DNA from: Zwartia panacis
GTDB lineage: Bacteria > Pseudomonadota > Gammaproteobacteria > Burkholderiales > Burkholderiaceae_B
DNA length: 64,000 nt
Direction: 5' to 3'
NCBI RefSeq assembly: GCF_030410395.1
Contig: NZ_JAUHHF010000001.1
Span: forward strand, 372,001 to 436,000
Positions within the stretch are counted from its first letter, which is position 1. Every line of letters begins with the position of its first letter. Of the stretch, positions 2,380-26,625 are shown in pieces. Below the pieces are notes generated by a model. That model did no database searches and was not told where the DNA came from. It was given only the letters and a program-made list of their open reading frames with translations. Made by a program: the position numbers and the translations under genes.

Positions 2380-2394
2380 GTCGGAATTGGTCAG
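2380..2394 (+). promoter_or_regulatory. Candidate operator, 10-bp-period direct repeat (site 1)
   Basis: GTCGGAATTGGTCAG in the divergent region between the amidohydrolase and M20 peptidase genes. It is one of six window copies of GTC-N3-ATT-N-GTC. A -10-like TATAGA (2415-2420) lies 20 bp downstream, so the repeat would touch the -35 region of the M20 promoter, as an OmpR-type activator site would. The binding protein is not known. Confidence 0.5.
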
Positions 2395-2474
2395 TTTTCC
2401 CTGCTTAATTCATCTATAGAATTTGTCTGGATCTTTGGACAAATAAAGACTGGTTAATATTCATAGGTGTTGGG

Positions 2475-3866
2475 ATGAGCGGCAGATTAAGAATAAAGAT
2501 AGCGTCCACGATATATCTGGCAAGTTGTCTTTGTGTGACACCCTTTACTGTCTCTGCCCATCCCGAGGATCAAAATCTACCCTCATGGGCTAAACCAGTC
2601 GCAGCCTGGCCTGTCGTGAGCGCATCTGTCAAACAGAGCATCCAAAATATTCTTGCTGAACAAACAATCAAGAAAACAATGGAGTCTTTGAAAGCAGACG
2701 AGGATTTAACACTCAAACAAAATATAGCGTTGAGTGAAATCCCGGCACCTCCCTTCAATGAACAGAAAAAAGCCCAAGCTTTCAAAGAGTTGATGATAAC
2801 CGCGGGTATAACAGATGCTTATATAGATCAAGAAGGGAATGCGATAGGCATTCGCAAGGGGAGTGGGAACGGGCCGCTGATCGTTCTCGACGCGCACCTC
2901 GATACAGTTTTTCCACTTGAGACAGATCTTAAGGTCGTTCAAAAAAATGGAAAGTATTATGGCCCCGGCTTGACAGACGACACGCGTGGACTCGCTGTAT
3001 TGCTCTCGTGGATTCGGGCATTGAATGCTAATAACATCAAAACAGTCGGTGACTTGATGTTCGTTGGAAGTGTGGGCGAAGAGGGGAATGGTGATTTGCG
3101 GGGTGTCCGGGCATTACTCAAAGAAAATAAAAATGTCGATGCATTTATCGGTTTAGAGCCCATCCCGCTGGGGGCTGTTGTCTCTCTCAACACTGGATCT
3201 GTTCGTTATGAAGTGAGTTTTTCTGCACCTGGCGGACATAGCTACGGAGCATTTGGCCTAGTACCCAGCGCAATTCATGCAATGGGAAGGGCGATTTCAA
3301 ATATTGCGAAGTTGCAGGTACCGAGCGTGCCGCGTACGACTTTCAATGTGGGGATCGTCAAAGGCGGTACGTCTGTGAATACGATTTCTCCGGATGCAAC
3401 GATGGAAATCGATATGCGTAGTGACGGTACAAAAGAGCTACAAGACCTCGAGCAAAAAGTTTTGGATATCATTGGGAAAGCGGTCGACGAAGAAAATAAG
3501 TCGATCGGCCAGAATTTAGCCGTTGGTAAAAATTCAGTCACGGTGAATTTAAAAAAGATTGGTCAACGACCTGGAGGGATGACGCCAAACAACTCGCCGC
3601 TTATTCAGGCGGCACTAGAGTCTCTTAGAGCGATGGGTCAAAAGGAGCTGGTGATTGTCGGATCGAGTACCAATGCAGGCATACCAATTTCTCTCGGGAT
3701 ACCGACCGTGATCTTACCGCCGGGAGGCGTGTTCGAGGGCTTTCATTCGCTTCAGGAGGGCATGGATCCGACAGACGGTTACAAGGGCTCGCAGATAGGG
3801 CTGTTGACGGTTTTATCGGTAGCAGGGGTGCAGGGCGTGAGTCAGCCGCTCATTAATAAAAAATGA
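2475..3866 (+). CDS. Exported M20-family metallopeptidase
   Basis: 463 residues with a signal peptide (about 1-28, ending TVSAHP). M20/M28-type motifs are present: H141/D143 (LDAHLDTVFP), D168 (GPGLTDD), E202/E203 (GSVGEEGNG), E228 (IGLEP) and a late His in GFHSLQEG. A dimerisation-domain stretch around residues 240-350 (VSFSAPGGHSYGAFG) fits peptidase T/ArgE/CPG2 relatives. It probably removes an amino acid from a peptide or N-acyl amino acid in the periplasm. It is divergent from the exported amidohydrolase, suggesting joint use of amide-linked substrates. The ATG at 2475 was chosen because the signal peptide starts there. Confidence 0.8.
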   Translation: MSGRLRIKIASTIYLASCLCVTPFTVSAHPEDQNLPSWAKPVAAWPVVSASVKQSIQNILAEQTIKKTMESLKADEDLTLKQNIALSEIPAPPFNEQKKAQAFKELMITAGITDAYIDQEGNAIGIRKGSGNGPLIVLDAHLDTVFPLETDLKVVQKNGKYYGPGLTDDTRGLAVLLSWIRALNANNIKTVGDLMFVGSVGEEGNGDLRGVRALLKENKNVDAFIGLEPIPLGAVVSLNTGSVRYEVSFSAPGGHSYGAFGLVPSAIHAMGRAISNIAKLQVPSVPRTTFNVGIVKGGTSVNTISPDATMEIDMRSDGTKELQDLEQKVLDIIGKAVDEENKSIGQNLAVGKNSVTVNLKKIGQRPGGMTPNNSPLIQAALESLRAMGQKELVIVGSSTNAGIPISLGIPTVILPPGGVFEGFHSLQEGMDPTDGYKGSQIGLLTVLSVAGVQGVSQPLINKK

Positions 3867-3890
3867 ATGCTAGAGCTCTGAATTGAGAAC

Positions 3891-3917
3891 TTGACGTCAA
3901 TAGCTCTCTTATACTTT
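3891..3917 (+). promoter_or_regulatory. Possible promoter/palindrome of the response-regulator gene
   Basis: A perfect 10-bp palindrome TTGACGTCAA (3891-3900) doubles as a -35-like hexamer. A TATACT/TACTTT element follows at 3910-3917. The 13-15 bp spacer is shorter than ideal, so this is only a candidate. None of the six GTC repeats is found here. Confidence 0.25.
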
Positions 3918-3948
3918 CATCAATATTCTCACAAACCGGATTGGAATC

Positions 3949-4641
3949 ATGCCACCTAAAGTATTAATCGTTGAGGATGAGGCCGATTTTAGAGATGGCT
4001 TGGTTGAGCTGTTGAAGCTAGAAAGCTTTGATGCAAATGGAGTCGGAAGCATCCAAGAGTATTTGGAATGGATTAAGAAAAATCAATACGATATTCTGAT
4101 TTTGGATAGAAATTTGCCTGATGGAGATGGTTTGGATATTTTGAGAAAATATCACAAACAGTCTGAGGCGGATTCGATTGTGTTGAGTTGCGAGGGACAG
4201 CCACACGATCGAATTTTAGGAATGAATGTTGATGCAGATTATTACTTGGTCAAACCCTTTCCTAGCGATGAGCTTCTTGCGATTTTGCATCGTATCGAAC
4301 GAAGACAAGGTGCGATCCAATCGTCCGATTCTGAAATATGGCGATTGAATATTGTCAGATGGGAAATCAAAACACCCAATCATCTCGAAATAGAACTCAC
4401 CAGAAGTGAGTTTGCTTTGCTGAATTGTTTTGTCAATAAGTCAGGTCAAGTGATTTCAAGAGACGAAATCATCAAAGGGCTCGGTTTCAATCCTGCTGTC
4501 TATGATAACCGTCGTCTGGAAGTGATGCTTCGCCGTTTGAGAAAAAAAATTGAAGACGCTGGGGTTGTTAAATTTCCGCTTCAAACGGTCTATGGAGTTG
4601 GATTGGCATTTAATGGTGTCATGAAGACTTCCGAATCATAG
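3949..4641 (+). CDS. OmpR/PhoB-family response regulator
   Basis: 230 residues: receiver domain (about 1-118) with acidic pocket E9/D10, phospho-acceptor D53 (ILDRNLPDGDG) and K102 (YLVKPF), then an OmpR-type winged helix (about 130-225) with ALLNCFVNKSGQVISRDEI and the wing YGVGLAF. It faces the histidine kinase gene tail to tail with an 8-bp gap, so the two are the likely cognate pair although not cotranscribed. OmpR-family proteins bind direct repeats spaced about 10 bp, and such repeats (GTC-N3-ATT-N-GTC) occur six times in this window; the link is inference. Confidence 0.9.
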   Translation: MPPKVLIVEDEADFRDGLVELLKLESFDANGVGSIQEYLEWIKKNQYDILILDRNLPDGDGLDILRKYHKQSEADSIVLSCEGQPHDRILGMNVDADYYLVKPFPSDELLAILHRIERRQGAIQSSDSEIWRLNIVRWEIKTPNHLEIELTRSEFALLNCFVNKSGQVISRDEIIKGLGFNPAVYDNRRLEVMLRRLRKKIEDAGVVKFPLQTVYGVGLAFNGVMKTSES

Positions 4642-4649
4642 CTTTGTGT

Positions 4650-6689
4650 TTAGATACTCTGTAATTGATCTGTTGGTTGTGCAATGCTGGTTTCAGGAAA
4701 CCAGGCGATAAATTCTGATCCCTTGCCTAAAGCACTAATCACCTCAATTTGACCGCCATAAAACTCCATCACTTTTTTGACAAAAGATAATCCCAAACCA
4801 TAGCCACGTTTGCTGGAGCCGGTTTGCACTTGCATGTACTCTTCAAATATTTTTTCATGATTTGCTTGATCTATACCGATCCCTGAGTCAGTGATCGAAA
4901 TACCCACTTTATTTTTGTCTAGCAGTATGCGGATCAAAACTGTAGATTGAGGCTCTGAATATTTGCAAGCGTTGTCAATAATATTCAGCACAACGACTTC
5001 CAGCATTTTTTCGTCTAGGACGAGCACCGGAACCTCTGCAGGTGAAATGAATGTGAAAGTATGATTCGGATGGTAGCCTTTACATTTTTCCACTGTATCT
5101 TTGAGCCACGAGTCAATTTGTATGAGCTGCGGCCTGTCTGTGTCGATGTGGCTCTCCAGGCGGTCGCCTTGCAACCAGCGGTCAAAGAGGAGTGCGAGTC
5201 TATGGGTGGCGGAGCTGATAATCGACAGTCGTTTTTTGTAGTTGTCATTATCGGTTTGACGAATGAGCAACGCTGCTTGATTTTCAATAATACCTAAGGG
5301 ACTTCTAAACTCATGTGAAATCAGTGAGCCAAAGCGAATGTATTGCTCGCGAAGTTTTTTCTCACTTTCAAGCATGGTTCTTAAATCATTGGTTCTGTTA
5401 AAGACTTGTCTTTCAAGTCTTTCCTCAGAGGCGCGTAGCGTTTGTACAAGAGTTTCTTTCGTGAATAATGCTTCTTGTTGTGCTTTTTCTCTCAGTATTC
5501 TCTCGTGTTGAATCCGGCTTGCGAGTGCAAAAGATAGCAACAACATTTCAATGGAGGAGGAAATTTGCAGTGCGTACGAGGTGAACCAGTTTGTTGGAAT
5601 AAGATCCAGTTGGCGAAGACTAGCCAAGACGCCTCCAATACACAAAGTACCCCAGGATATGATAAAAAACTTGGCACTGTATTGACCTGACAGATAAGCG
5701 CGAAAGCCGGCATACAAGACTATCACAATGACGGGCATCACGATGATAGGAAAGATTTCAAAAATTAGATTTTTCGAAACGTTGACATACTCTGCCGCAA
5801 TAATAACGACAGCATATGTAAAGAAAACGATGATCAAAAAATTAAACATCCAATTGGTAATGGGTTGTTCTTTTTTGGTATTTAAGAATTTTGTTGAAAA
5901 AATAAGAGCCATTCCCGTGCCAAGGGTCAAAAAGACAATCTGCGAGATCTGATCCCATTGGGGAGAGTTTGGCCAAATAAAGAGCCGTCCGTAGCCGTTT
6001 CCGGCAAAAATACCCAGTCCAAAAAGTATTGCGAACGCGGAGTAATAAAGATGAGAGCGATCTCTCAGATATAGAAAAATAAGAAAGTTAAATGCAGCGA
6101 GGATTCCAAGACCCCCATAATAAAAAGCTTGGATCAGCGTGTCAGTTTGAATGTGTTTGTCAAATGCGGACTGTTCCCATAGCCTGAGTGGAATGGTCAA
6201 ACTTTGCTTTGAGTCAATTTTGAAATAAAAGTCTTTCGGTTCTTCGCTTAACTCAATTGGAAAGGCGTAGAAACGGTAAAAGCTGCTTCTGCTATCGACG
6301 GGCATCAGATTACCCGTCTGTGTCATGCTTTCTTGGGAAGCATAAAAGTCGATGTGATCAAGTCCAAAATAGGGTATTTCTAATATCCAGCTTGAGGTCT
6401 GTGTGTGTTTGCTAGAGAGTGAGAGTTTGATCCAGTATGTTGAAGAACTGAATCCGAAATTCAATTCCTCACCCCATGAGAGTGCGGGTTTAAATTTTTC
6501 TTGATAAGCGGGCGTGAGAATTTCCTGATAGCTGAGTAATCCCGTAGGATCAATTAGGACGCTGGCATGAGAAATAGGATTCGAAGGATTTGTGATTTCA
6601 GTATTGGATTGACTGAAAGTATTTGCCTGAAGTCCAAAATACAAGCACAACCAATAAAGGAGATTCAATAAATATTTCTTATTCTTCAT
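4650..6689 (-). CDS. 7TMR-DISM sensor histidine kinase
   Basis: 679 residues: signal peptide (about 1-26), periplasmic 7TMR-DISMED2-like beta domain (about 40-180, with STYWIKLSL and FYFKIDS), seven hydrophobic helices (about 190-395), a linker coiled coil (395-450), a HisKA domain with the H-box SHEFRSPLG near residue 460, and a HATPase domain (N-box NIIDNACKYS, G1 DSGIGI, G2 GYGLGLSF). There is no C-terminal receiver. DISMED2 domains are thought to sense carbohydrate-like or other small ligands. It is the likely partner of the convergent OmpR-type regulator. A GTC direct repeat 100 bp upstream points towards this gene, suggesting autoregulation. Confidence 0.9.
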   Translation of the reverse strand: MKNKKYLLNLLYWLCLYFGLQANTFSQSNTEITNPSNPISHASVLIDPTGLLSYQEILTPAYQEKFKPALSWGEELNFGFSSSTYWIKLSLSSKHTQTSSWILEIPYFGLDHIDFYASQESMTQTGNLMPVDSRSSFYRFYAFPIELSEEPKDFYFKIDSKQSLTIPLRLWEQSAFDKHIQTDTLIQAFYYGGLGILAAFNFLIFLYLRDRSHLYYSAFAILFGLGIFAGNGYGRLFIWPNSPQWDQISQIVFLTLGTGMALIFSTKFLNTKKEQPITNWMFNFLIIVFFTYAVVIIAAEYVNVSKNLIFEIFPIIVMPVIVIVLYAGFRAYLSGQYSAKFFIISWGTLCIGGVLASLRQLDLIPTNWFTSYALQISSSIEMLLLSFALASRIQHERILREKAQQEALFTKETLVQTLRASEERLERQVFNRTNDLRTMLESEKKLREQYIRFGSLISHEFRSPLGIIENQAALLIRQTDNDNYKKRLSIISSATHRLALLFDRWLQGDRLESHIDTDRPQLIQIDSWLKDTVEKCKGYHPNHTFTFISPAEVPVLVLDEKMLEVVVLNIIDNACKYSEPQSTVLIRILLDKNKVGISITDSGIGIDQANHEKIFEEYMQVQTGSSKRGYGLGLSFVKKVMEFYGGQIEVISALGKGSEFIAWFPETSIAQPTDQLQSI

Positions 6690-6788
6690 GTTCTGAGAAT
6701 GTATGAGGATGCGCTGGGTATCAACGTCTGAACGGAGTGTACAAAGATTTGCTTGTATAGGCCGAAATTAAAGTCAACATACCTAATA

Positions 6789-6803
6789 ACGACAAATTCT
6801 GAC
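6789..6803 (-). promoter_or_regulatory. Candidate operator, 10-bp-period direct repeat (site 2)
   Basis: On the minus strand GTCAGAATTTGTCGT, between the kinase gene (start 6689) and the divergent carbonic anhydrase gene (start 6895). It matches GTC-N3-ATT-N-GTC and points towards the kinase gene. A TATACA hexamer lies 30 bp downstream on the same strand. Confidence 0.5.
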
Positions 6804-6894
6804 ATATTCTGCGATAGCAGTAATCAATTAGTCTGATAGATTTAAAGTTGATGTCACGAAGATTTAATGTGCAAACGACTGATATCTCAAATTC

Positions 6895-7515
6895 ATGAAC
6901 CCGCCAAAAACAAACACTCCAATGCATCCTGATGAAGCTCTGGCAAAATTGATTGCTGGTAACAAGCGATACATGGCTGGATTCGACTCTCCAGATTCGT
7001 TTAAATTTCAGGATCCAGGTATCGAACATCATCAATTTCCATATGCCTGCATATTAGGATGTGCGGATTCCAGGGTAAGTCCAGAGCATACATTTGATGA
7101 GAGTCATGGAAATTTGTTTGTCACGCGCGTCGCAGGAAATTTTGTGACCCCCGAAATCCTGGGAAGCCTTGAATATGGTACGGCGGTATTGGGTGCATCT
7201 GTTATCTTGGTGTTAGGACATTCTGGATGTGGTGCGGTGAATGCTGCGATAAAAGCCGTCGCATCAAAAGCAGTCTTTGAGGGTCATATCAATCAACTGA
7301 TCGATTCGTTAGTGCCTGCTGTTGAGGAAGTCAGGCATGATGATCATGAGCATTGGAAGAGTGAAGCTGTCATTCGAAATGTGTCTCAGAATGTATCCAT
7401 ATTGACGTCATCTGAACCAATTTTGAAGAAAAGAATTGAAAACGGACTGTTAAAAGTTGTGGGAGGTGTCTACAACCTTCATAGCGGTGAAGTCTCGATC
7501 ATTAAGAGTTGTTAA
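6895..7515 (+). CDS. Beta-class carbonic anhydrase
   Basis: 206 residues, no signal peptide. The zinc and active-site pattern is intact: C56-x-D58-x-R60 (CADSR) and H109-x2-C112 (GHSGCGA). The reaction is reversible hydration of CO2 to bicarbonate, in the cytoplasm. Its length and the GSLEYGTAVLG segment match the cyanobacterial/proteobacterial clade. It stands alone, divergent from the sensor kinase gene with a shared 205-bp region carrying a GTC direct repeat; whether that repeat controls it is unknown. Confidence 0.92.
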   Translation: MNPPKTNTPMHPDEALAKLIAGNKRYMAGFDSPDSFKFQDPGIEHHQFPYACILGCADSRVSPEHTFDESHGNLFVTRVAGNFVTPEILGSLEYGTAVLGASVILVLGHSGCGAVNAAIKAVASKAVFEGHINQLIDSLVPAVEEVRHDDHEHWKSEAVIRNVSQNVSILTSSEPILKKRIENGLLKVVGGVYNLHSGEVSIIKSC

Positions 7516-7717
7516 TCGATTCGGATTCAGGAGCAAAGTAGTTCGACGACACAGACAATGTCATAAACGTTTCAACAAATTTTTTCAAAGCATGAAGAGT
7601 TCCTCAATGATCTGGTTTATGACTCTTTAACTCAGCTTATCTTGCAGAAGATGTGATCCAGACCCTACAGAATCGTTTAGTCAATCTATAAGCTTTTAAA
7701 AAAATTAGCTAAATATT

Positions 7718-9886: not shown

Positions 9887-9944
9887 TTCTTTCTTCCCGA
9901 GATGGATGGCATAGATATAGATGAACCAGTGTTGGAGAATTTAA

Positions 9945-10484: not shown

Positions 10485-10488
10485 TTCT

Positions 10489-14185: not shown

Positions 14186-14267
14186 CTTTTGTTCAGTGCT
14201 TATAAAAAGAGGTGTTTATAAGAAAGAGAAGGTAATAAAAATGTATCATTGAACGTGGTCTTCAATA

Positions 14268-14282
14268 CCGACCAATTGCGAC
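14268..14282 (-). promoter_or_regulatory. Candidate operator, 10-bp-period direct repeat (site 3)
   Basis: On the minus strand GTCGCAATTGGTCGG, in the short gap between the nucleoside hydrolase stop and the carboxylesterase start. It matches GTC-N3-ATT-N-GTC, points to the carboxylesterase gene, and is followed after about 22 bp by a -10-like TACATT. This suggests the esterase has its own promoter. Confidence 0.5.
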
Positions 14283-15459: not shown

Positions 15460-16707
15460 TCATTGACCTTTGCTCCAAAAATTCTCTATACGTTTAAGTG
15501 GATCTTGATATTGAAGCCCGGATTTTTCAAGCCATGAGGCGTTGTAATAATTATCTGCATATCTGAGCCCTGCATCACAGATGATGGAGACGATTGCTCC
15601 TGATTGTCCCGATTGGTGCATTTCTTTGACGATACTCAATACTCCACAAAAATTTGTGCCCGTAGAAGGCCCGACATCAAATCCGACGAGTTTGGAGACT
15701 AAGTGCATGGCTGCGACTGAATCCGCATCAGGCACCTTAATCATTTTGTCTACGCCTTCACGCAATAGGCTAAAGGTATTCCCCATTTTGATCGGTCCGC
15801 GAGAGCCGATGCCCTCGATTCTTGAGCCTTTCGAGATTGATAAGCTGTTGTCACCGGTTTTGAACCAATCCATTAAGACAGAGTCCTCCGGGTCGACCAC
15901 TGCAAGTTTTGCCGGACATGCACCGTCGTAATCTGACCATTTCCTAATGTATCTGGCAATGCTGGTTGCTGTCCCGCCAGAGCCTGCTCCCGCAACAAAC
16001 CATTGCGGGCATGCATGATCGCTATGTTGAAGCTGTAGATAGATTTCGTTGGCTATATTCATGGTTGCAGCGGGATTCCCTTTGTAATAATCAAGGGCTT
16101 TTTCCGCATTGGCAAACTGATCAATGTTGTAGGCGAGGGGGTCTTTTTCAATTTCACGTCGTATGAATTCAGCAGGTGTCATGTCTTGCGTCAGAATTTC
16201 TGTACGTGCCCCAAAGCCCCTGATTGCTCGGAGTTTTCCTTCACTGACGCCAGGACGCATGACCGCAGTAAAGTTGAGATTCAGCAGTTTGGCGAAATAT
16301 GCTTCTCCGATGGCGGTATTGCCACTGGAAGCTTCGTATAGCTTTGTTTGGGGTCCGATTTTCCCTTCAATGATGGCATGCATGATCAGCGCCCACGCGA
16401 CACGATGTTTCAAGCTGCCCGTTCTGGATTTGGATTCGTCTTTGAGATAAATGCTTATTTTTTCATCGAATGGGCAGTTAGTTTTGATGAGTGGCGTAAC
16501 ACCCGATTGCTCACGATCACGCCACATCGTTTTAATCGCTTCACGTATCCAGAGTCTATTGGTGCCTGAAACAAGATGATTGGCATCTACAAAGTTATAG
16601 CGAGGCTCAGCCAGGACATAGGGGATACCCAATGTCAAACTTCCGATGCCGAACATTCCGTTTTTTAAAAACTTTCTTAAAGAAGTGTTTGGTTTATTAG
16701 TGTTCAT
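15460..16707 (-). CDS. Exported Cds1-like PLP-dependent enzyme (cysteine synthase fold)
   Basis: 415 residues. Fold-type II PLP enzyme with Schiff-base Lys K100 (TGSLKHR), the EASSGNTAIGEAYFA loop, the Gly-rich AGAGSGGTATS phosphate cup and a C-terminal CDAG motif. YLKDESKSRTGSLKHR resembles Cds1-type L-cysteine desulfhydrases more than CysK/CysM. An N-terminal hydrophobic stretch after basic residues (RKFLKNGMFGIGSLTLGIP, then YVLA) looks like a Sec signal or anchor, which is odd for a PLP enzyme because the cofactor would have to be present outside the cytoplasm. It is the first gene of a run with the exported nucleoside hydrolase. A cysteine desulfhydrase or lyase role is inferred only. 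Confidence 0.75.
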   Translation of the reverse strand: MNTNKPNTSLRKFLKNGMFGIGSLTLGIPYVLAEPRYNFVDANHLVSGTNRLWIREAIKTMWRDREQSGVTPLIKTNCPFDEKISIYLKDESKSRTGSLKHRVAWALIMHAIIEGKIGPQTKLYEASSGNTAIGEAYFAKLLNLNFTAVMRPGVSEGKLRAIRGFGARTEILTQDMTPAEFIRREIEKDPLAYNIDQFANAEKALDYYKGNPAATMNIANEIYLQLQHSDHACPQWFVAGAGSGGTATSIARYIRKWSDYDGACPAKLAVVDPEDSVLMDWFKTGDNSLSISKGSRIEGIGSRGPIKMGNTFSLLREGVDKMIKVPDADSVAAMHLVSKLVGFDVGPSTGTNFCGVLSIVKEMHQSGQSGAIVSIICDAGLRYADNYYNASWLEKSGLQYQDPLKRIENFWSKGQ

Positions 16708-16776: not shown

Positions 16777-16791
16777 GTCAGAATTTGTCGG
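16777..16791 (+). promoter_or_regulatory. Candidate operator, 10-bp-period direct repeat (site 4, extended)
   Basis: GTCAGAATTTGTCGG, continuing with AATTGTTC to give about two and a half 10-bp repeats up to 16803. It lies between the PLP-enzyme gene (start 16707) and the methyltransferase gene (start 16837), pointing to the latter, with TATATT at 16825-16830. Confidence 0.5.
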
Positions 16792-16836
16792 AATTGTTCT
16801 GGTGGAGAGTTTCATTTTGAAATGTATATTGAGTGA

Positions 16837-18108
16837 ATGATTGAGATTATTCATCCGTCTAGAAATATGAATTCGCGATTACTTCTTGAGCAATATCGTC
16901 ACTGGATCTATCCTAGGCCTATCGAGGATATGCGGAAAGCGATTTCTTCGGGAGGGTATCTTGAGATCGGTGACCCCACATACTATTGGCCCTTAATGTG
17001 GTCAGACAGTCGCCGCGTCGATCAACCTTTAGATGTATTGTGTGCGGGTTGTGGAAGTAACCAAGCTGCTTATTACGCTTGTCAGAATCCTCAGTGGAAT
17101 GTAGTGGGTATCGATGTATCAGATTCGGGTTTAGCGCATCAGAGTCTACTCAAAGAGCGACACGCATTAAGAAATCTTGAATTGATTGAGATCGACCTCA
17201 CACAAGTTTCCCAGTTGGGGAAAAGTTTTGATTTCATTACATGTACTGGTGTGCTGCATCATATGACCGATCCTGATGCCGGTCTCAAGGCACTGTCCTC
17301 AGTTTTACGTCCGGACGGTATCCTCAATATCATGATGTACGGAAAGCATTTGCGCATGGGTATCTATCCGTTGCAGGAGGCGTTCCGACTCATGCGACTT
17401 GAGCAGTCATCCAGTGACGTCACGTTGATTAGAGAGATTTTGCAGTCTTTACCGCAGGATCATCCTGTCCACAGATATATGCGTCATTCAAATGATCTAG
17501 GTTATGACGCAGGTATCGTCGATACCTTTTTAAATCCGTTGGATCAAGCTTATTCAGTTAAAGATATTTTTTCTTTTACCAGGCGTGCTGGCCTTGAGTT
17601 TTTAAATTGGTGTGAACCTGCAGAATACAGTTTGCGAGCCCAGGTCCCTGAGGATCATCCGCTTTGGTCAAGGCTTGATGATCTATCGCAAGAGGAGGCT
17701 GCGCACCTCTGCGATTTGTTGTTGCAGTCCCGAGGAACACATCGCTGGATGGCTGCTCACCCTGATTATGTTGCAAAAGCAAAGATTCCATTTGATCATG
17801 ATGCTTTATTTGATTACACATTCAGATTGACCCCAGGGGGAAAGATCAATGAAGGCCATGATTCCAGCGGCTCGGACTTGTTTGAGTGCACCAGAGGCAA
17901 TCTTACTTTCAAATTTCCAGGGCTTTTGCATCATCTGACTGAATGCATGAGTTTCTCAAGATCCATCAGATCTGTACTTGAGTCGGATGCGTCATTCGCT
18001 AATGATATTCAATCTCTCAAAGCCTATGTGTCCCGAACTTTGAGAGATCTCTACGAAATGGGGCATGTACAGATTTTTATGCCTGATTCATCTCAGGTTT
18101 TGTCTTGA
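16837..18108 (+). CDS. Class I SAM-dependent methyltransferase
   Basis: 423 residues. A Rossmann methyltransferase domain spans about 55-185: motif I VLCAGCGSNQA, acidic end of beta2 GIDVS, motif IV-like FITCTGVLHHM, and VLRPDGILNIMMYG. The ~230-residue C-terminal part is not recognised and may bind the substrate; RTHRWMAAHPDY and GGKINEGHD are notable. The target is unknown. It is 12 bp upstream of the EF-hand gene, on the same strand. The start ATG is 45 bp from the GTC direct repeat; a second ATG ten codons further in is possible. Confidence 0.8.
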   Translation: MIEIIHPSRNMNSRLLLEQYRHWIYPRPIEDMRKAISSGGYLEIGDPTYYWPLMWSDSRRVDQPLDVLCAGCGSNQAAYYACQNPQWNVVGIDVSDSGLAHQSLLKERHALRNLELIEIDLTQVSQLGKSFDFITCTGVLHHMTDPDAGLKALSSVLRPDGILNIMMYGKHLRMGIYPLQEAFRLMRLEQSSSDVTLIREILQSLPQDHPVHRYMRHSNDLGYDAGIVDTFLNPLDQAYSVKDIFSFTRRAGLEFLNWCEPAEYSLRAQVPEDHPLWSRLDDLSQEEAAHLCDLLLQSRGTHRWMAAHPDYVAKAKIPFDHDALFDYTFRLTPGGKINEGHDSSGSDLFECTRGNLTFKFPGLLHHLTECMSFSRSIRSVLESDASFANDIQSLKAYVSRTLRDLYEMGHVQIFMPDSSQVLS

Positions 18109-18498: not shown

Positions 18499-18512
18499 TT
18501 GTATTGATCGAT

Positions 18513-19808: not shown

Positions 19809-19839
19809 GGATTTCCGTTATTTAAGAAATCCATGAAGA

Positions 19840-20133: not shown

Positions 20134-20135
20134 GA

Positions 20136-20181
20136 AAAACCCCGATGAACACCGGGGCTTGCTGAGTTCAGGGCTGAACTC
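20136..20181 (-). terminator. Terminator plus second hairpin abutting a start codon
   Basis: On the minus strand an 18-bp perfect inverted repeat (20164-20181, arms GAGTTCAG/CTGAACTC) is followed by CCCCG...CGGGG and TTTTT (20136-20157). It ends the Bug operon, yet the last T is directly followed by the ATG of the small Pro-rich protein. Transcription of that gene must read through, so attenuation is possible. Confidence 0.7.
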
Positions 20182-20252
20182 TTCTAAAGAATCCCCAATG
20201 TCATCGGAGTTTAAGCTGACAGAGTCGGCGACCACATTTTTTAAGCAGTTTT

Positions 20253-20267
20253 GTCGTAATTTGTCGG
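20253..20267 (+). promoter_or_regulatory. Candidate operator, 10-bp-period direct repeat (site 5)
   Basis: GTCGTAATTTGTCGG, between the stop of the first Bug gene and the leader of the small Pro-rich protein gene. It matches GTC-N3-ATT-N-GTC but is oriented opposite to the downstream gene, unlike the other copies. Confidence 0.4.
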
Positions 20268-20276
20268 TTTTAAAGG

Positions 20277-21284
20277 CTAGTCTAGTTTGATGCCCGCACT
20301 CACGACTTTGCGCCACCCTTGCAGCTCATTCTCCATCATTGAGCCAAATGCGGCAGGAGATCCATAAAATGGAGTGGCACCCTCGCGCTCAAAGCGGTCT
20401 TTCAACGCGGGTGATTCACTGTTGATCGCTGCCTTGAGTGTCGAGATGACATTGGCCGGTGTGGATTTGGGCGCAACAATACCCCACCATGTCGAGACTT
20501 CGTATCCCGGAACACCACTTTCGATCACAGTCGGTACCCCAGGAAACATGGTTGATGGCTCTTTGGACGTGACCGCGAGCAGGTTGACCTTATTGCTTTG
20601 GATTTGTGCACGTATGGTCGGAACTGTCGAGAAAAATACCTGGGTTCGGCCCGCAATTAAGTCTAGAGTTGCAGGACCGCTTCCTTTGTAGGGAACGTGA
20701 GTCATTTTGACTCCGGCCGCCTGAGCATACATTTCCGCGGCTAGGTGGTTGATTCCTCCAGGCCCAGAGGTGCAGTAGGCCAGTTCACCGGGTGATTTCT
20801 TGGCTTTCTCTAAAAGCTGTGCCATGGTTGTGATCCCGGAGTCTTTCGAGGTCACGACAACGAGGGGCCCGCTTCCCAGCAAGGCCACCGGGGCGAAATC
20901 TTTAATCGGATCGTAGCTGGGCTTGGGGTCAGAAGCGGCATGCGTTGCAAACGTGGAGGTCACAAAAAGAAGTGTATGACCATCGCCTGGTGCTTTCGCG
21001 ACTCCATTGGCCGCGATTGAGCCACCCGCTCCACCTTTGTTTTCAACAACAACCGGAGTTTTTAACTTTTCACTCAATAATTTTGCCAAGTCGCGAGCGA
21101 TGCTGTCTGTACCTCCGCCTGCGGCAAAGGGCACAACAAGTGTGATTGGTTTTTTGGAAAAATCGACAGGCTGCGCCTGCGTTGCCCAAGGCGTGACGAG
21201 GGCCGTGGCAACGAGGGTGTGACAAACGAGTGTTTGTATAAAAAGACGGCGTTTATTGATTTTGAAGCTTCTTGATGGACGCAT
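20277..21284 (-). CDS. Bug/TctC-family tripartite tricarboxylate transporter binding protein
   Basis: 335 residues. Signal peptide about 1-38 (ending ATQAQP), then the Bug fold: PITLVVPFAAGGGTDSIAR near the N-terminus, AKAPGDGHTLLFV, HVPYKGSGPATLDLIAG. These bind small carboxylates in the periplasm and hand them to TctAB-type permeases or sensors. The ATG at 21284 was chosen because AAGAGAG precedes it and it lies 17 bp after the previous Bug gene. No TctA/TctB gene is nearby, so this is an orphan receptor. Confidence 0.9.
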   Translation of the reverse strand: MRPSRSFKINKRRLFIQTLVCHTLVATALVTPWATQAQPVDFSKKPITLVVPFAAGGGTDSIARDLAKLLSEKLKTPVVVENKGGAGGSIAANGVAKAPGDGHTLLFVTSTFATHAASDPKPSYDPIKDFAPVALLGSGPLVVVTSKDSGITTMAQLLEKAKKSPGELAYCTSGPGGINHLAAEMYAQAAGVKMTHVPYKGSGPATLDLIAGRTQVFFSTVPTIRAQIQSNKVNLLAVTSKEPSTMFPGVPTVIESGVPGYEVSTWWGIVAPKSTPANVISTLKAAINSESPALKDRFEREGATPFYGSPAAFGSMMENELQGWRKVVSAGIKLD

Positions 21285-21301
21285 GTTTCTCTCTTGTTGA
21301 C

Positions 21302-22261
21302 TTAATCGATTGTGATCTTGCCATCCTCGATCACTTTTTTCCATCGAGCAAATTCATCCGCCTGGAACTGAGTGAATTGTTCCGGTGTATTGGCGACAAC
21401 TTCGAGTCCCTGGGAAACAAATCTCTCTTTGACTGCTGGATCATTAATGGCGGCAATAATAGCTTGTGAAAGTTTTGATTTGAGCTCGGCAGGTAAGCCT
21501 TTGGGGGCCGCGACGGCCTGCCACGAATAGACATTGACGCCATTCACATTCTGTTCTTTCAAGGTGAGTACCTCTGGTAAAACAGTAGAGCGATTATCTC
21601 CAGTGATTGCCAGCGCCTTTAGTTTTCCAGCCTTGATATGTGGAACAACCGCATTGATATTAAAAAATGCCGCGTCCATTTGGCCGCCGAGCAGATCGTT
21701 CAGCGCGGGTGCGCCACCTTTGTAGGGAACATGTAGGCCTGTTGTTTTGGTTTGTTGCCAGAACAGTTCAGCGGTCAGGTGGTCAGAGGAGCCGTGACCA
21801 GAGGAGGCGAATGACACTTTTCCGGGATTTTTCTTGAGTTCCGCAAGCACGTCACTCATGTTGTTGAAACGCGAGTTGGCAGGAACGACTAAAACGTTTG
21901 GCGCTTGAACAGCGACAGTCAGATAGTCAAAGTCCTTCAGTGCATCGTATTGCAGATTCTTGATCAGGTGGGGTGCGATGACGAGCGGACCAAGGGATGA
22001 AACAAAAAGCGTATAGCCATCTGCAGGTGCGCGTTTGACAAGCGTGGCACCGATCGTACCCGTCGCGCCAGCCTTATTTTCCACAACAAAGCTACCACCA
22101 AATTTTTCTTGCAGTTTGGGAGCTAGGGCGCGTGCAATGCTGTCAGTCGGACCACCGGGAGGAAAGGGGACGATGATCGTGACAGGTTTTTCTGGATAAA
22201 CAGCCATTGCGTTAAAAGATGCCATGAGTGAGATAAGCATCGTGGCCAATATTTTTTTCAT
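21302..22261 (-). CDS. Bug/TctC-family tripartite tricarboxylate transporter binding protein
   Basis: 319 residues. Signal peptide (about 1-20, ending FNAMA), then PVTIIVPFPPGGPTDSIARA, KRAPADGYTLFVS and HVPYKGGAPALNDLLGG, the standard Bug landmarks. The start is the ATG at 22261 with GGAG six bases before it; the longer TTG frame (22273) would include that ribosome site. It is cotranscribed with the second Bug gene, and divergent from the porin gene, an arrangement that suits uptake of an organic acid across both membranes. Confidence 0.92.
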   Translation of the reverse strand: MKKILATMLISLMASFNAMAVYPEKPVTIIVPFPPGGPTDSIARALAPKLQEKFGGSFVVENKAGATGTIGATLVKRAPADGYTLFVSSLGPLVIAPHLIKNLQYDALKDFDYLTVAVQAPNVLVVPANSRFNNMSDVLAELKKNPGKVSFASSGHGSSDHLTAELFWQQTKTTGLHVPYKGGAPALNDLLGGQMDAAFFNINAVVPHIKAGKLKALAITGDNRSTVLPEVLTLKEQNVNGVNVYSWQAVAAPKGLPAELKSKLSQAIIAAINDPAVKERFVSQGLEVVANTPEQFTQFQADEFARWKKVIEDGKITID

Positions 22262-22376
22262 GTGTGTCTCCAAAGTTATATTTTTATAAATTTATCTTAG
22301 TTCCACCTTCTTGTCGATATCATGGCTTATCCCTAAGATCCAACCATAGCAGTTAATTCAATACAAGGATTTTAGT

Positions 22377-23570
22377 ATGCGATTAGTGCCTGTCATTCGT
22401 TTCGTATGTTTAACATTTTGTGCAACGACCAGCCTTTCCTTTGCACAGTCATCACTCACACTGTACGGTACTGTCGATTCAGGTTTTGCATATCAAAACC
22501 ACTCAGCCAATGATTCTGGAACATATGGAAGCGCGTCTCGCTTTGCGATGGTGAGTGGTGGACAATCAGGTAATCGCTTTGGTCTGAAGGGTAAGGAAAA
22601 AGTTTCTGAAAATACCGATATAAATTTTGTTTTGGAAAACGGATTTGATATCGGTAATGGTACGTTCAGTCAAAGTGGTCGAATGTTCGGCAGACAAGCT
22701 TGGCTTGGTGCGAGTTACAAAGGTTTAGGGAATTTTCGACTGGGTCGACAATATGATTTTGCGAATGATTACACATCCGAATTAACACCATTCGGACCGG
22801 GTGATTTTGCTTCGGCATCGCTGGGCTTATCGTTCGGATCAGCGAATGCAGAGCGCTTCAGTAATATGATTCGATTAGAGACTGATCGTATCGAGGGCTT
22901 CAAAGCAGGCGTAGGCTATACGTTTTCTTCGCAGATACCATCTGCCTACGTCATAGACGGTGCGTATCCTGTTGTTCCTGGTGAATCGAGAGATTACAAC
23001 TTCGCGAGTCAGGATAACCTGCGTGCGCTCTCGTCTGGAATCCAATATCAGAGTGGTCCACTTTATACGACAGCGACCTATGATGCCTATTATCCAAACG
23101 CTGCAACTGCTAAAGGACAAGTGCCGAACGCCTCGGCATGGATTCTCGGTGCGGCATACAACATTGGTTCATTTAAATTATCAGGAGCCTATGGGCAAAC
23201 GCGCAATGCCTGGTTAAATCCTGCTCAGCTCATTCAAACATTCACGCAACCTAGCAACCTCGGCACAACAAATAACAGCATTGTTTTTGATCAGAACATC
23301 GCAGTCGATTCATATTTATTAGGTCTGACTTATACACCCAATAAAGTCACCAACATTTTTCTGTCATGGCAGATGGCAAAACCTTCAGCTGGTATGCAAT
23401 CGAATCCATTCTTTCCTATCGATACTCAAACCGTTTACAGTTTTGCATACACATATAACTTTACTCCCCGGACAAACATCTACGCGATGGGTGCATATTC
23501 GACCAACTACAGCATGAGTCAAGGTCTGACATACTCCTTGGTTGGAGTTGGTATTCGTCATAAATTCTGA
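22377..23570 (+). CDS. Trimeric Gram-negative porin
   Basis: 397 residues. Signal peptide about 1-23 (ending LSFAQ), then the betaproteobacterial porin opening SSLTLYGTVDSGF, the SRFAMVSGGQSGNRFGLKG segment and the closing VGVGIRHKF with terminal Phe for outer-membrane insertion. AAGGA seven bases before the ATG supports the start. Passive diffusion channel; its divergent Bug neighbours suggest organic-acid uptake. Confidence 0.92.
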   Translation: MRLVPVIRFVCLTFCATTSLSFAQSSLTLYGTVDSGFAYQNHSANDSGTYGSASRFAMVSGGQSGNRFGLKGKEKVSENTDINFVLENGFDIGNGTFSQSGRMFGRQAWLGASYKGLGNFRLGRQYDFANDYTSELTPFGPGDFASASLGLSFGSANAERFSNMIRLETDRIEGFKAGVGYTFSSQIPSAYVIDGAYPVVPGESRDYNFASQDNLRALSSGIQYQSGPLYTTATYDAYYPNAATAKGQVPNASAWILGAAYNIGSFKLSGAYGQTRNAWLNPAQLIQTFTQPSNLGTTNNSIVFDQNIAVDSYLLGLTYTPNKVTNIFLSWQMAKPSAGMQSNPFFPIDTQTVYSFAYTYNFTPRTNIYAMGAYSTNYSMSQGLTYSLVGVGIRHKF

Positions 23571-23606
23571 CCTAAATACAACATTTTTTTAAAATGTAAG
23601 TATTCG

Positions 23607-25154
23607 TCAGATTGATTTTTGAACGGATTGATTCCTGACCCGTAATAACTTTTTATCGACCTTTCCTGCAGCAGTCAGTGGTAAAGAATCTTTAAATTCG
23701 AATGATCGGGGGCACTTGAAGCGACTGAGCACATGACGACAGTGATCCAGCAAGATTTCTTCACTGGCTGTCATGCCTGCTTTGAAAACGATCACCGCAT
23801 GCACACTTTCTCCCCACTTTTTATGCGGGATACCAATGACAGCGCATTGGCTGATACTTGGGTGACTGCAGATGACACTTTCTACTTCAGCAGGATAAAT
23901 ATTCTCGCCGCCAGAGATGATCATATCTTTAAGGCGGTCTGTCACAAACAAATAGCCTTCTTCGTCCAGGTATCCCACATCTCCTGTTCGTAACCACCCA
24001 TCCAGATATGCTTTTTCGGTATCCACAGGACGGCGCCAATACCCTTTCATGATTCCGGGACCTCTTAACAAAATCTCTCCATTTGTACCGCAGGCGACAG
24101 GTTCGCCGTTTTCATTAATGATGCGGATTTCGGATGATAAGGTTCCGCGTCCGACAGATCGGAAACGATTACTTTGAATAAATGAAGGATGGTTCTCTAT
24201 GGACAAGACTGAAACAGAGGCTGCGGTTTCTGTCATGGCATAGGAATGGACGAATTCGACTGCTGGAAATCTGGCTAACGCTTCTTGCAGTAAAGGCAAT
24301 GCAATGGGTGCAGCTCCCCAGAAAACTCTCTTTAAGCTCGGCAGGTATTCTGGATCAAAATTCTCCGTATTCATCAACATCTGCAGCATACTGGGCACCA
24401 GCATTAAATCGTGGACACCCTCTTGTTTGATCAGCTCGATGACGGATTGAGGTTGAAAGCCTGGTAGTGTCACTGATGTACCGCCCACCAGAATTTGCAA
24501 AATCATTCTAGAAAGTCCTGCGACATGAAACATCGGCGAGGTGAGCAATGTCACCGAATTGGATGCGCTGGGTACCTCAACCATGCGACCGACAAGGGAG
24601 GACCAGAAATTTCCATGAGACAACATGACACCTTTAGGTGAACCAGTCGTACCGCCTGTATAAACTATTGCGGCTAGGGCATCTGCGGCGCACCGCATGT
24701 CATCCATTGGATGACTTGAATGCGATACTTTTTCTAGATTAATGTAGCCCTCCGGTTCCTGATCATCATCCAAATACAAGTACCAATCAAGTGCCGGCAT
24801 GTCTGAATCGATTGCCTGAACAATGGTCAGCATATTTGAGCAAGTCGCGACTGCTCGTGCCCCCGAGTCTGCAATCGCATAGCCCATCTCTGAGGGTGCC
24901 CAACGGGTGTTCACAGGTTGTGCGACTAATCCAGACCACCAGCATGCCAATAGCAACTCGATCATTCGATCTGAGTTTTGAGAGACAATCGCTAGACGGT
25001 CTCCTGCCTTTAATCCTAGTTTATGCAGGGCAGAGGCCCTTCGTGAGACACGCTCGATTAATTCGGCGTAAGATTGACGACGATCGCCACTCACTGTCGC
25101 TATTTTTTCAGGGTGGCGTTGCAGCGAGCGATGAAGTCCTGATGTCAAATACAT
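23607..25154 (-). CDS. Acyl-CoA synthetase/ligase (AMP-binding)
   Basis: 515 residues of the ANL superfamily. Visible are the P-loop-like TGGTTGSPKGVMLSHGN (about 169-185), YAMTETAASVS, the hinge TGDVGYLDEEGYLFVTDRLKD and the C-terminal catalytic Lys region TAAGKVDKK. It activates a carboxylic acid to acyl-AMP and then acyl-CoA; its size and motifs resemble medium/long-chain or aryl ligases, but the substrate is not assigned. It sits 29 bp downstream of the MpaB-type oxygenase gene, so oxidation products from that enzyme may be its substrate (inference). Confidence 0.88.
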   Translation of the reverse strand: MYLTSGLHRSLQRHPEKIATVSGDRRQSYAELIERVSRRASALHKLGLKAGDRLAIVSQNSDRMIELLLACWWSGLVAQPVNTRWAPSEMGYAIADSGARAVATCSNMLTIVQAIDSDMPALDWYLYLDDDQEPEGYINLEKVSHSSHPMDDMRCAADALAAIVYTGGTTGSPKGVMLSHGNFWSSLVGRMVEVPSASNSVTLLTSPMFHVAGLSRMILQILVGGTSVTLPGFQPQSVIELIKQEGVHDLMLVPSMLQMLMNTENFDPEYLPSLKRVFWGAAPIALPLLQEALARFPAVEFVHSYAMTETAASVSVLSIENHPSFIQSNRFRSVGRGTLSSEIRIINENGEPVACGTNGEILLRGPGIMKGYWRRPVDTEKAYLDGWLRTGDVGYLDEEGYLFVTDRLKDMIISGGENIYPAEVESVICSHPSISQCAVIGIPHKKWGESVHAVIVFKAGMTASEEILLDHCRHVLSRFKCPRSFEFKDSLPLTAAGKVDKKLLRVRNQSVQKSI

Positions 25155-25183
25155 GATTTTTTCTCATTCCCTCGGTAGGATAT

Positions 25184-26275
25184 TTAATTTTGTTGATAGG
25201 CTGCAGAACCGTCTATTTGGGCGCAAATTGATTGGATTTGCTTGGCTGATTGCTCGATGACAGTCTGTTTGTAATGGAAATCTTCTCTGATTCGTCGCAT
25301 GTGGTAACGATTGGCATTGACATACGTTGGTATGAGTGAACTCAGTGAAGTGTCTGAAGCGCCGACTGCATCGGCTAAAGCATCACCGTGGATATGACGC
25401 GCAAATCCGTGCATGAGTGAAGTGGCAATGTCTTTTGGGAGATTCATCGCTAAAGACATGCGTTGTCCCATTGCCTCCAGCATAGAAAGAGTCAGAACTT
25501 TCGATTTTTCGCTTGGATTGGGCATATCTTGATCGAATTTTTTTAACCAAGCTAAAGCGCGACCGGGTTGTGCAAGCTCTGACATCATTCTGACGGGAAT
25601 ACCTAGGAGTTGTCCGACGAGATGCCAAAGCGCGGCGACATGATGTTGCTCCTCCTCGGTCCATTCAATTCCAAGTCGCTCAAGCGCTTGTGGTGATACG
25701 ATCGCAAAATCCAGCCAGGTACGAACCATTTGTCTCTGATCAAAAGGTTGTTTGTTGCTGAAGTGTGGGGCATCCTTTTTAATACTTGCACGAACTTTTG
25801 CATGAATCAGTCGAACTTGCAGTGTGTGCACATATCCATAACCTCCCGGCTCCCAGGCATCTTCTTGCAAAAGCTTCAGGAGCCAGAGTTGAGTTTCAGA
25901 CAGACGTTTGGACGCCATTTCATTCACGAGCTTTCCGGTCTGAACCAGAATGTTGGCAATTGCTGGATCTGTATAGGTGTGCAGTAGCGCTCCGGGACCT
26001 AAAGAGATGCTCAGCCAGAGTGGTCCGATATACAAATAGGGGATCGAAGCTTGTTTCAGGCATGGGGAATTCTTTAATAATTCTTCAGCCTGAGAGAGAA
26101 ACGATCGATAGGATGGTGGTGCCTGTGGAATCGACTGAACGCCTTGCTTGACGCCTTGAATTAACCAATCTTTTTCTAGTGGCGATGCCTTGAGCCAATC
26201 TTGAATGGCCGCATCGGCAAGTGGATCGCCTTCATTCAGTTCGGGCCATTCATTTAGATTGATTTCATGATTCAT
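25184..26275 (-). CDS. MpaB/Lcp-type oxygenase (DUF2236)
   Basis: About 363 residues from the ATG at 26275; an upstream TTG at 26332 would add 19 residues but has no ribosome site. It shows the DUF2236 landmarks: TLQVRLIHAKVR (conserved R-x2-H-x3-R) around the middle and the following ALWHLVGQLLGIP helix. Members include the heme oxygenase Lcp (rubber cleavage) and fungal MpaB (cleaves a terpenoid side chain). There is no signal peptide, unlike secreted Lcp. Probably cotranscribed with the acyl-CoA ligase, hinting at oxidative cleavage of a hydrophobic chain followed by CoA activation. Confidence 0.72.
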   Translation of the reverse strand: MNHEINLNEWPELNEGDPLADAAIQDWLKASPLEKDWLIQGVKQGVQSIPQAPPSYRSFLSQAEELLKNSPCLKQASIPYLYIGPLWLSISLGPGALLHTYTDPAIANILVQTGKLVNEMASKRLSETQLWLLKLLQEDAWEPGGYGYVHTLQVRLIHAKVRASIKKDAPHFSNKQPFDQRQMVRTWLDFAIVSPQALERLGIEWTEEEQHHVAALWHLVGQLLGIPVRMMSELAQPGRALAWLKKFDQDMPNPSEKSKVLTLSMLEAMGQRMSLAMNLPKDIATSLMHGFARHIHGDALADAVGASDTSLSSLIPTYVNANRYHMRRIREDFHYKQTVIEQSAKQIQSICAQIDGSAAYQQN

Positions 26276-26625
26276 CTCAATACGTCCGTTAAAAGCGCCT
26301 AATCTGCTGTGCTCTAGCTCGTCATGGCTCAATAGTTGAGTTCATGAACCGACTGAAATTGATATCAAGATACTTCGAGTGATCAAATAAATATTTTGAA
26401 TCGGTCGAAATACAAGTCGTTTGACGAGGGTTGTCCTTGCTGAGACTTTAGATTTAGTAGATTGTCATACTAGCGTGCTTGCAGATCAGTGGATGCGTGA
26501 TGTCAGTATTCGTCAGATTTTCTGTTGCCAGATTTTGCTGGAAATACCCTTGCCAAACGCGCATGGTTTAAATAGGCGGTGACCTCTACACTGGTGGTCC
26601 AGCATCACTTAATCGGGCCATCGCA
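26276..26625. other. Intergenic control region with candidate operator
   Basis: About 350 bp between the divergent oxygenase and outer-membrane protein genes. Apart from the GTC direct repeat at 26502-26516, no gene, hairpin or known site was recognised. Confidence 0.4.
26502..26516 (+). promoter_or_regulatory. Candidate operator, 10-bp-period direct repeat (site 6)
   Basis: GTCAGTATTCGTCAG, 109 bp before the outer-membrane barrel gene and pointing to it. It matches GTC-N3-ATT-N-GTC. A looser CAGATTTT repeat follows. No clear -10 box at the expected distance. Confidence 0.45.

Follow-up and report, generated by a model that had tools for sequence, protein, structure and literature searches.

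The Pho box of PhoB, the ArcA box and the KdpE box are direct repeats that serve winged-helix regulators, and the half-site of PhoB begins with a TGTCA-like sequence. Kinases of the 7TMR-DISM type are known mainly from Pseudomonas, and RetS, LadS and SagS act via Gac/Rsm or c-di-GMP. The Escherichia coli OmpR operator is reported to consist of two 10-bp units arranged head to tail (PMC7380067), while the repeats of the ArcA box follow each other at a step of 11 bp (PMC3798270) and those of the KdpE box at a step of 6+5 bp (PMC3264566). A 64,000-nucleotide stretch of the Zwartia panacis genome (hereafter the window) carries a 19-bp box, GTCRKWATT-N-GTCRKWWTT, made of two like half-sites 10 bp apart. 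Similar to the Pho, ArcA and KdpE boxes it is a direct repeat, and similar to the OmpR operator it is a head-to-tail pair of 10-bp units; unlike the OmpR operator, its half-site is GTCRKWATT and the regulator proposed to bind it is, among proteins of solved structure, closest by sequence to BaeR, BasR/PmrA and RegX3. From the ArcA and KdpE boxes it differs in its step of 10 bp, and from all three boxes in the sequence of the half-site; identity with the Pho box was rejected because the step is 10 bp instead of 11 bp. The kind of system is known, and the box and the regulon are new; the openings of the abstracts covered by our literature search contain no description of either. We propose, on the strength of comparative sequence evidence, that the OmpR/PhoB-family response regulator encoded at 3949-4641 very probably uses the box as its operator and, with the neighbouring 7TMR-DISM kinase, would control a gene set rich in exported hydrolases.

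The initial annotation described six copies of a 15-bp direct repeat sharing the 13-bp core GTC-N3-ATT-N-GTC. All six were found (cores at 2380+, 6791-, 14270-, 16777+, 20253+ and 26502+) and the 10-bp step stands, while the length has to be extended to 19 bp and the core alone proved unspecific. The window contains 10 core matches, a count reached in 0/100 dinucleotide shuffles; these gave 0.52 matches on average and 4 at most, in agreement with the chance expectation of about 0.5 given at the outset. Four matches had been overlooked, 2438- (intergenic) and 24924-, 30249+ and 55265+ (all three inside ORFs), so that the earlier remark on the absence of copies from the core half is inexact. Genome-wide, the bare core has 52 matches in Z. 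panacis (14 for the reversed-pattern control), 37 of which lie within ORFs of at least 90 aa, and it was dropped as a motif for this reason; a looser pattern allowing two mismatches was discarded as well, its excess being small (241 versus 212 in the control). Of the 13 AT-rich extended copies in Z. panacis, 11 are located outside ORFs of at least 90 aa. The extended copy at 20253 falls in a 158-aa ORF without Pfam match, and that at 6785 in a 104-aa ORF that is antisense to the first part of the carbonic anhydrase gene.

Altogether 14 boxes were accepted in Z. panacis and 15 in Zwartia vadi, a species isolated from a stream according to PMC10535154. They are clustered, extend to at least three contigs besides that of the window and are mostly intergenic (25/28 by ORF calls); the other three (window 20253, L092:9463 and L093:4704) fall either within an ORF of no known family or within the 5' part of a frame taken at its longest. 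The two half-sites have identical or nearly identical base make-up at seven of nine positions. GTC is found in both halves of 26 of the 28 aligned sites, with GTA in one half of the remaining two, and three tandem half-sites at 10-bp steps occur in G117, another genome of the family. For twelve of the 14 Z. panacis sites, the Z. vadi regions that were fetched contain a corresponding box at an orthologous place with diverged flanks. These 12 pairs are identical at 16-19 of 19 positions versus 0.31-0.56 per 10-column flank block, the identity at the fixed positions being partly a matter of selection, since pairs were chosen for having a box in both species.

The box at 2380-2398 (+, GTCGGAATTGGTCAGTTTT) is located 76 bp upstream of an M20 hydrolase gene (2475-3866, +), which itself precedes the regulator gene and is possibly co-transcribed with it, and is divergent from an amidohydrolase gene (693-2282, -). 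Its Z. vadi counterpart (L093:9763) is 17/19 identical, and a downstream ATAGAAT is common to both. The box at 6785-6803 (-, GTCAGAATTTGTCGTTATT; counterpart L093:4704, 16/19) lies in the gap between the divergent sensor kinase and carbonic anhydrase genes, upstream of the former. The box at 14264-14282 (-, GTCGCAATTGGTCGGTATT) lies upstream of its presumed target, a carboxylesterase gene (12506-14185, -), and adjoins the 3' end of a nucleoside hydrolase gene (14298-15431, -) that is missing at the corresponding place in Z. vadi; the counterpart (L092:5014) is 18/19 identical and TGATACATTTTTAT is also common to both. The box at 16777-16795 (+, GTCAGAATTTGTCGGAATT), fully identical to L092:6372 (19/19), separates the divergent genes of a cysteine desulfhydrase-like, PLP-dependent enzyme with an export-type N-terminus (15460-16707, -), detected at E ≤ 1e-90 in two of the 32 genomes searched (Z. 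panacis and Z. vadi), and of a methyltransferase (16837-18108, +) downstream of the box. The box at 20253-20271 (+, GTCGTAATTTGTCGGTTTT) has an 18/19 identical counterpart located before the porin gene in Z. vadi, unlike in the window, where two TctC genes lie between the box and the porin gene (22377-23570, +). A seventh, degenerate box at 23596-23614 (+, GTAAGTATTCGTCAGATTG), with a 16/19 identical counterpart at L092:10789, is found between the 3' ends of the convergent porin and acyl-CoA-ligase genes, and this conserved copy fits no promoter. As noted before, five copies are oriented toward a downstream gene start and the 20253 copy is reversed, facing the 3' end of a TctC gene.

The box at 26502-26520 (+, GTCAGTATTCGTCAGATTT; counterpart L092:13572, 17/19) lies between the divergent genes of an MpaB/Lcp-type oxygenase (25184-26332, -) and an outer-membrane beta-barrel-like protein (26626-27504, +; 21.0 bits, under the 28.7 cut-off). 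The latter had been regarded as the target; however, both the box and the MpaB-type gene are retained in Z. vadi, while no ortholog of the barrel-like protein was found in its fetched regions, and the oxygenase gene is therefore more likely the lasting target. A rubber-degradation theme is not claimed, as no protein of solved structure matches the oxygenase at E ≤ 0.001; a cytochrome matches 4b2n ("70 kDa protein", which we take to be RoxA) over 143 residues only. The M20 hydrolase, the amidohydrolase, the carboxylesterase and the nucleoside hydrolase all have signal-peptide-like N-termini. Purine catabolism as a single theme was rejected: nucleoside enzymes recur, yet the M20 hydrolase, which reaches no NCBIfam cut-off, is nearest to a poly(aspartic acid) hydrolase (7ljh).

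The protein encoded at 3949-4641 (+) combines a receiver (Response_reg) with a winged-helix Trans_reg_C domain, at 76.3 and 53.9 bits, both over the Pfam cut-offs, and is thereby an OmpR-family member. Nine aligned homologues have D53 (the phospho-acceptor Asp) and K102 in common, as well as Y185, D186, R188, R189, R195-R198 and K200. The C-terminal part of this set is to some degree characteristic of OmpR-family members in general; BaeR has a similar RRLR region, and the same residues recur in the regulators of two genomes without boxes (G020 and G027). The gene of the proposed partner kinase (4650-6689, -) is arranged tail to tail with that of the regulator; the kinase has 7TMR-DISM_7TM, DISMED2 and HATPase_c domains over the cut-off, a HisKA match slightly under it (26.2 versus 26.9 bits) and the H-box HEFRSPL. 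It shares the 7TMR-DISM sensor and membrane domains, by Pfam, with RetS, LadS and SagS, but differs from them in having no receiver domain by Pfam and in adjoining an OmpR-family regulator. A kinase homologue adjoins the regulator in both Zwartia species, G086, G117, G185, G486, G410 (a 354-aa frame with a partial match), G362 and G060, and lies about 3.4 kb from it in G020.

The attribution of the box to this regulator, already suggested in the initial annotation, is supported by the distribution of both across genomes. The extended pattern GTCRBWATTNGTCRKNWTT was found in four of 200 family genomes (10 copies in Z. panacis, seven in Z. vadi, one each in G086 and G185), its reversed control having no match in either Zwartia genome. 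Regulator homologues (E ≤ 1e-35) occur in 7/268 family genomes (the same four, G117, G020 and G027), and all four box-holding genomes belong to the five carriers among the 200 (hypergeometric 8e-8; 1.5e-4 minus the two Zwartia). Nine loci outside Z. panacis and Z. vadi, retrieved because of the regulator, were scanned with a matrix trained on 13 Z. panacis sites; six sites reached at least 17 bits, where 0.16 were expected and at most two appeared in 500 Markov simulations. They sit in three of the nine loci: three in G486, which belongs to another family and whose regulator is 68% identical, two in G117 and one in G410. This count omits L166 and L164, fetched for their box hits; the count including them (9 versus 0.18) is biased. 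The other six loci, among them those of G020 and G027 (regulators 52% identical) and the main locus of G086 (53%), have no site at this threshold. No association between strict pattern and regulator was seen in 399 order-level genomes: 12 have a homologue (E ≤ 1e-30) and six the strict pattern, Z. panacis being the only overlap, and five non-carriers (G611, G056, G597, G475 and G650) have one strict copy each. In the genus of G486 the regulator is confined to G486 itself (1/151, E ≤ 1e-50).

Boxes are also found near the genes of the pair in several lineages. In Z. panacis and Z. vadi a box is directly upstream of the kinase gene, in G117 upstream of the gene preceding it. Upstream of the gene preceding the regulator gene, a box occurs in Z. 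panacis, Z. vadi (with about 0.8 kb extra) and G486 (there pointing away). G086 has one 65 bp before the gene of a regulator-like paralog, pointing away, at a locus found via the box, and in G185, whose regulator is 36% identical, a strict core match of 15.8 bits falls between the divergent regulator and kinase genes.

A different transcription factor, either of the LysR or AraC type or another response regulator, might bind the box, with the regulator gene at 3949-4641 being merely a target. Z. panacis has seven further OmpR-family matches (E ≤ 1e-20), and two LysR genes are near boxes (window 28360-29277 and L097:12696-13610). LysR sites are dyads and AraC proteins have two unlike domains, whereas a direct repeat of like half-sites suggests a single domain that binds twice. 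Moreover, the Z. vadi regions that were fetched contain the boxes but no match at E ≤ 1e-20 to either LysR gene, and the box accompanies the regulator in other genera and in another family, which makes a different factor unlikely. Less probable still is that the box serves as a point of recombination or insertion, comparable to integron or transposon target sites, beside which genes are gained and lost. In 6 of 12 pairs, gene-sized differences between the two Zwartia genomes begin at the box or within about 40 bp of it, some at its extreme 3' end (window 20271 and 26519/20; L098 6216/L096 6065), and L031 and L094 contain an integrase-like gene. However, other gaps in the same regions differ as well (4/20 by hand count; Fisher p 0.085), so an insertion hot spot is not established. 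The breakpoint base is not constant, breakpoints fall on both sides of the box, alignments end there partly because the box is the last conserved stretch, and no integrase or transposase family was found among the 30 window proteins scanned.

Marginally less credible still is a role of the box as promoter element for an alternative sigma factor, for which the upstream position of most boxes and a weak T preference about 14 bp past the box (T in 18/28, two columns) could be quoted. Like half-sites at 10 bp and the triple repeat of G117 are unlike a -35/-10 pair; the boxes are oriented either way and also stand between convergent ends. A -10-like hexamer at a shared offset (38) accompanies only 4/28 sites, too few for claiming a fixed spacing. 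Chance or the base composition of an AT-rich island (GC 0.40-0.51 at 2-28 kb versus 0.51-0.56 past 36 kb), with a bare core common genome-wide, is a negligible explanation in view of the shuffles, the empty extended control, the conservation and the co-occurrence with the regulator.

In the preferred reading, that of an operator of the OmpR/PhoB-family regulator, the 7TMR-DISM kinase would sense an extracellular signal and phosphorylate the regulator on Asp53, and the phosphorylated regulator would bind the box. It would control, and most likely activate, the operon that encodes it together with the kinase gene and a target set in which exported hydrolases, enzymes of nucleoside breakdown, redox enzymes, lipoproteins and porins are prominent. 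Results that count against this reading are the six carrier loci without a site at the threshold, the missing order-level association, the box between convergent gene ends, several boxes facing away from the closest gene start and the rarity of the -10-like hexamer. As the system is sporadic, and sites and some targets lie beside the regulator, it behaves as a portable regulon. It is conceivable, albeit doubtful, that the pair spreads horizontally with its own operators and a varying complement of exported scavenging enzymes, the operators being docking points for newly gained genes; just as tentatively, the substrates scavenged might be nucleotides, nucleosides, peptide-like polymers, esters and isoprenoids. 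With an easily recognised box, a candidate regulator and a list of targets, all in environmental bacteria available in culture, the signal, the binding and the regulon become directly testable, and a regulator that seemingly moves between families together with its binding sites may provide a case for how new genes join existing control.

The box is a direct repeat of a 9-bp half-site with a repeat step of 10 bp. The six copies listed in the initial annotation are all present in the window, where the bare core GTC-N3-ATT-N-GTC is matched 10 times in 64 kb against 0.52 expected, a count equalled in none of 100 shuffles. Genome-wide in Z. panacis (3,341,787 bases in 54 contigs; Zwartia is a member of Alcaligenaceae), the bare core has 52 matches, 37 of them inside ORFs of at least 90 aa; a longer form is common to 13 of the 52, and 11 of these 13 lie outside such ORFs. 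Alignment of 28 sites, 14 each from Z. panacis and Zwartia vadi as accepted from the fetched regions, yielded the consensus T-GTC-R-K-W-ATT-N-GTC-R-K-W-W-T-t, in which the half-sites have equal or near-equal base make-up save at positions 7 and 9; 25 of the sites are intergenic by ORF calls. The profile built from them, which the training sites match by construction, has 17 matches in Z. panacis and 16 in Z. vadi at E<=10, and between 0 and 4 per genome in the 30 other genus members, weak sites possibly being missed because scoring was limited to the best 150 first-look candidates per genome. A fifteenth Z. vadi site (contig position C3:41090) came from this genome-wide search. A looser pattern tolerating two mismatches was swamped by background matches and was rejected.

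The window encodes an OmpR/PhoB-family response regulator (3949-4641) and, tail to tail with it, a 7TMR-DISM histidine kinase (4650-6689). The box at 2380 is upstream of an M20-hydrolase gene, after which the regulator gene follows, and the box at 6785 is upstream of the kinase gene; judged from this arrangement, the pattern would be that of an autoregulated two-component system. Z. vadi has counterparts of both boxes, with a distance between the M20 and regulator genes greater by about 0.8 kb. The M20 hydrolase (2475-3866) has a signal-peptide-like N-terminus and, among solved structures, strongly resembles 7ljh, a poly(aspartic acid) hydrolase (E 4e-85).

The fetched Z. vadi regions contain orthologously placed counterparts of 12 of the 14 Z. 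panacis sites. The ortholog box pairs are identical at 16 to 19 of 19 positions, partly by selection at the fixed bases because the pairs were picked for holding the box, and mean identity in the flanks is 0.31 to 0.56 per 10-column block. About 17 bp behind the box, the 2380 pair shares ATAGAAT and the 14264 pair shares TGATACATTTTTAT, stretches that resemble a -10 region, as would be expected behind an operator overlapping the -35. A good hexamer at that offset is found at only 4 of the 28 sites (two pairs).

The proposal that the boxes are the regulon sites of the OmpR-family regulator at 3949-4641 is supported, within the limits given below, by co-occurrence in the family and by an excess of sites at regulator loci. 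Among 200 family genomes, the extended pattern occurs only in Z. panacis, Z. vadi, G086 and G185. Regulator homologues (protein search, E<=1e-35) occur in 7 of 268 family genomes, namely these four, G117, G020 and G027; thus every box genome is a carrier (8e-8 by chance, or 1.5e-4 without the two Zwartia, where the box was defined). In nine loci of other genomes, retrieved for their regulator, a matrix trained on 13 Z. panacis sites detected 6 sites of at least 17 bits against 0.16 expected, with at most 2 in 500 simulations: three in G486, two in G117, one in G410 and none at the regulator loci of G086, G185, G020, G027, G362 and G060. At 15.5 bits, 9 sites were obtained against 0.46, with one more each in G185 and G020, the latter inside an ORF. 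A further 121,297 bases, made up of the surroundings of more distantly related regulators plus one flank, contained no site of 17 bits. An earlier locus set (9 against 0.18) was set aside since it contained two loci fetched for box matches; the unbiased set has lower counts and undiminished odds, the excess still being about forty-fold. Genome G486 belongs to another family; its regulator is 68% identical, and it is the sole carrier at E<=1e-50 among 151 genomes of its genus.

Some results speak against the association. The G020 and G027 regulators are 52% identical, yet a good box is absent at their loci, and the main regulator locus of G086 also has none. Among 399 order-level genomes, 12 are carriers (E<=1e-30) and 6 have the strict extended pattern, Z. 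panacis alone being in both lists; the other five have one copy each, in line with the scattered single matches of the reversed control. The box-less 52% relatives and this non-overlap argue that the box goes with one branch of the regulator, not with every relative.

In other lineages the box also lies close to the pair. In G117 it is upstream of the gene preceding the kinase gene, and three half-sites stand in tandem at 10-bp steps; in G486 it is upstream of the gene preceding the regulator gene, pointing away. In G185, the gap between the divergent regulator and kinase genes contains a strict match to the core (15.8 bits), and in G086 a box lies 65 bp before a regulator-like paralog, pointing away, at a locus found through the box. 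Residues Y185, D186, R188, R189, R195-R198 and K200 of the presumed recognition helix are common to nine regulators, down to 35% overall identity, which is weak evidence because some of them are typical of the entire OmpR family and because G020 and G027 have them too.

In L166 of G117, near the carrier locus, there are a regulator-like frame of 123 aa and another kinase homologue (4732-5103, 5088-7172), and boxes 4578 and 7835 have identical 31 bases downstream, as if a unit had been duplicated; a paralog locus of this kind is also present in G086 (L164). Separately, GTCAGAATTTGTCAT recurs in four genus members without a close regulator (L065 1007, L071 1503, G004:C73:53046 and G010:C82:14134), with similar surrounding sequence at L065 and L071, the two loci whose flanks were compared, and is possibly a different conserved element.

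The arrangement of the box is of a known kind. OmpR binds two tandem 10-bp half-sites (PMC7380067), like the 10-bp step of the box, whereas ArcA sites repeat at 11 bp (PMC3798270) and those of KdpE at 6+5 bp (PMC3264566). Literature searches found no description of this half-site, regulator branch or regulon, all of which are new as far as these searches show.

Within the genus, the regulator is at least 89% identical in 2 of 32 genomes and 52% in two more, and the PLP-enzyme gene is confined to the first two. In another genus, one genome out of 151 carries the regulator. From this sporadic distribution, the unit seems to spread together with its sites. The window boxes lie in an AT-richer stretch near the tmRNA gene (GC 0.40-0.51 at 2-28 kb). 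Gene-sized differences between the two species reach up to the box in 6 of 12 pairs, compared with 4 of 20 for the other gaps by hand count (p 0.085), which is no more than suggestive of gene gain or loss clustering at boxes. Some genes found in one species only have their ends just a few bases from a box (window 20272-22308, L097 12651-13595, L096 6065). Integrase-like genes, 55% identical, are found on the box-bearing contig C10 of Z. panacis (L031 10140-11492) and its Z. vadi counterpart (L094 15634-16989). A tmRNA terminator copy is 5.1 kb away from the 3' end of the tmRNA (window 28185-28229 and 33351), together with the short repeat GCGGTTTGGTGG/GCGGTATGGTGG. Terminator and tmRNA adjoin each other in Z. 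vadi (L092 13630-13676), and the stretch from about 28230 to 33345 looks like an insertion at the tmRNA end.

Signal-peptide-like N-termini are found at the box genes for an amidohydrolase, the M20 hydrolase, a carboxylesterase, a porin, an outer-membrane-barrel-like protein, lipoprotein-like proteins, a RoxA-like cytochrome, nucleoside hydrolases and a 5'-nucleotidase. A crude signal-peptide rule predicts export for 17 of 36 box-facing genes, compared with 27 of the 129 remaining genes of these regions (p 0.002, too strong a value because orthologs of the two species are counted twice), and for 9 of 18 in Z. panacis alone; among the proteins to which the rule gives no such prediction are the methyltransferase, the PLP enzyme and the MpaB-type oxygenase. 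Twin-arginine-like or export-type N-termini were also seen near boxes in a molybdopterin oxidoreductase (L097 282-3008), the PLP enzyme (window 15460-16707) and a carbonic anhydrase (L031 4537-5292), families that are mostly cytoplasmic. Two of the three boxes examined in G185 adjoin c-di-GMP genes instead (L165, L168). Three genomes have nucleoside hydrolases beside boxes or close to them (window 14298, L097:4068, L170:7050, L187:3408), and two of the three G486 boxes are among genes for a CD39-type nucleotidase, a nucleoside hydrolase and an adenosine-deaminase-like protein, all three with export-type N-termini. Our guess is that the system may respond to extracellular nucleotides or polymers.
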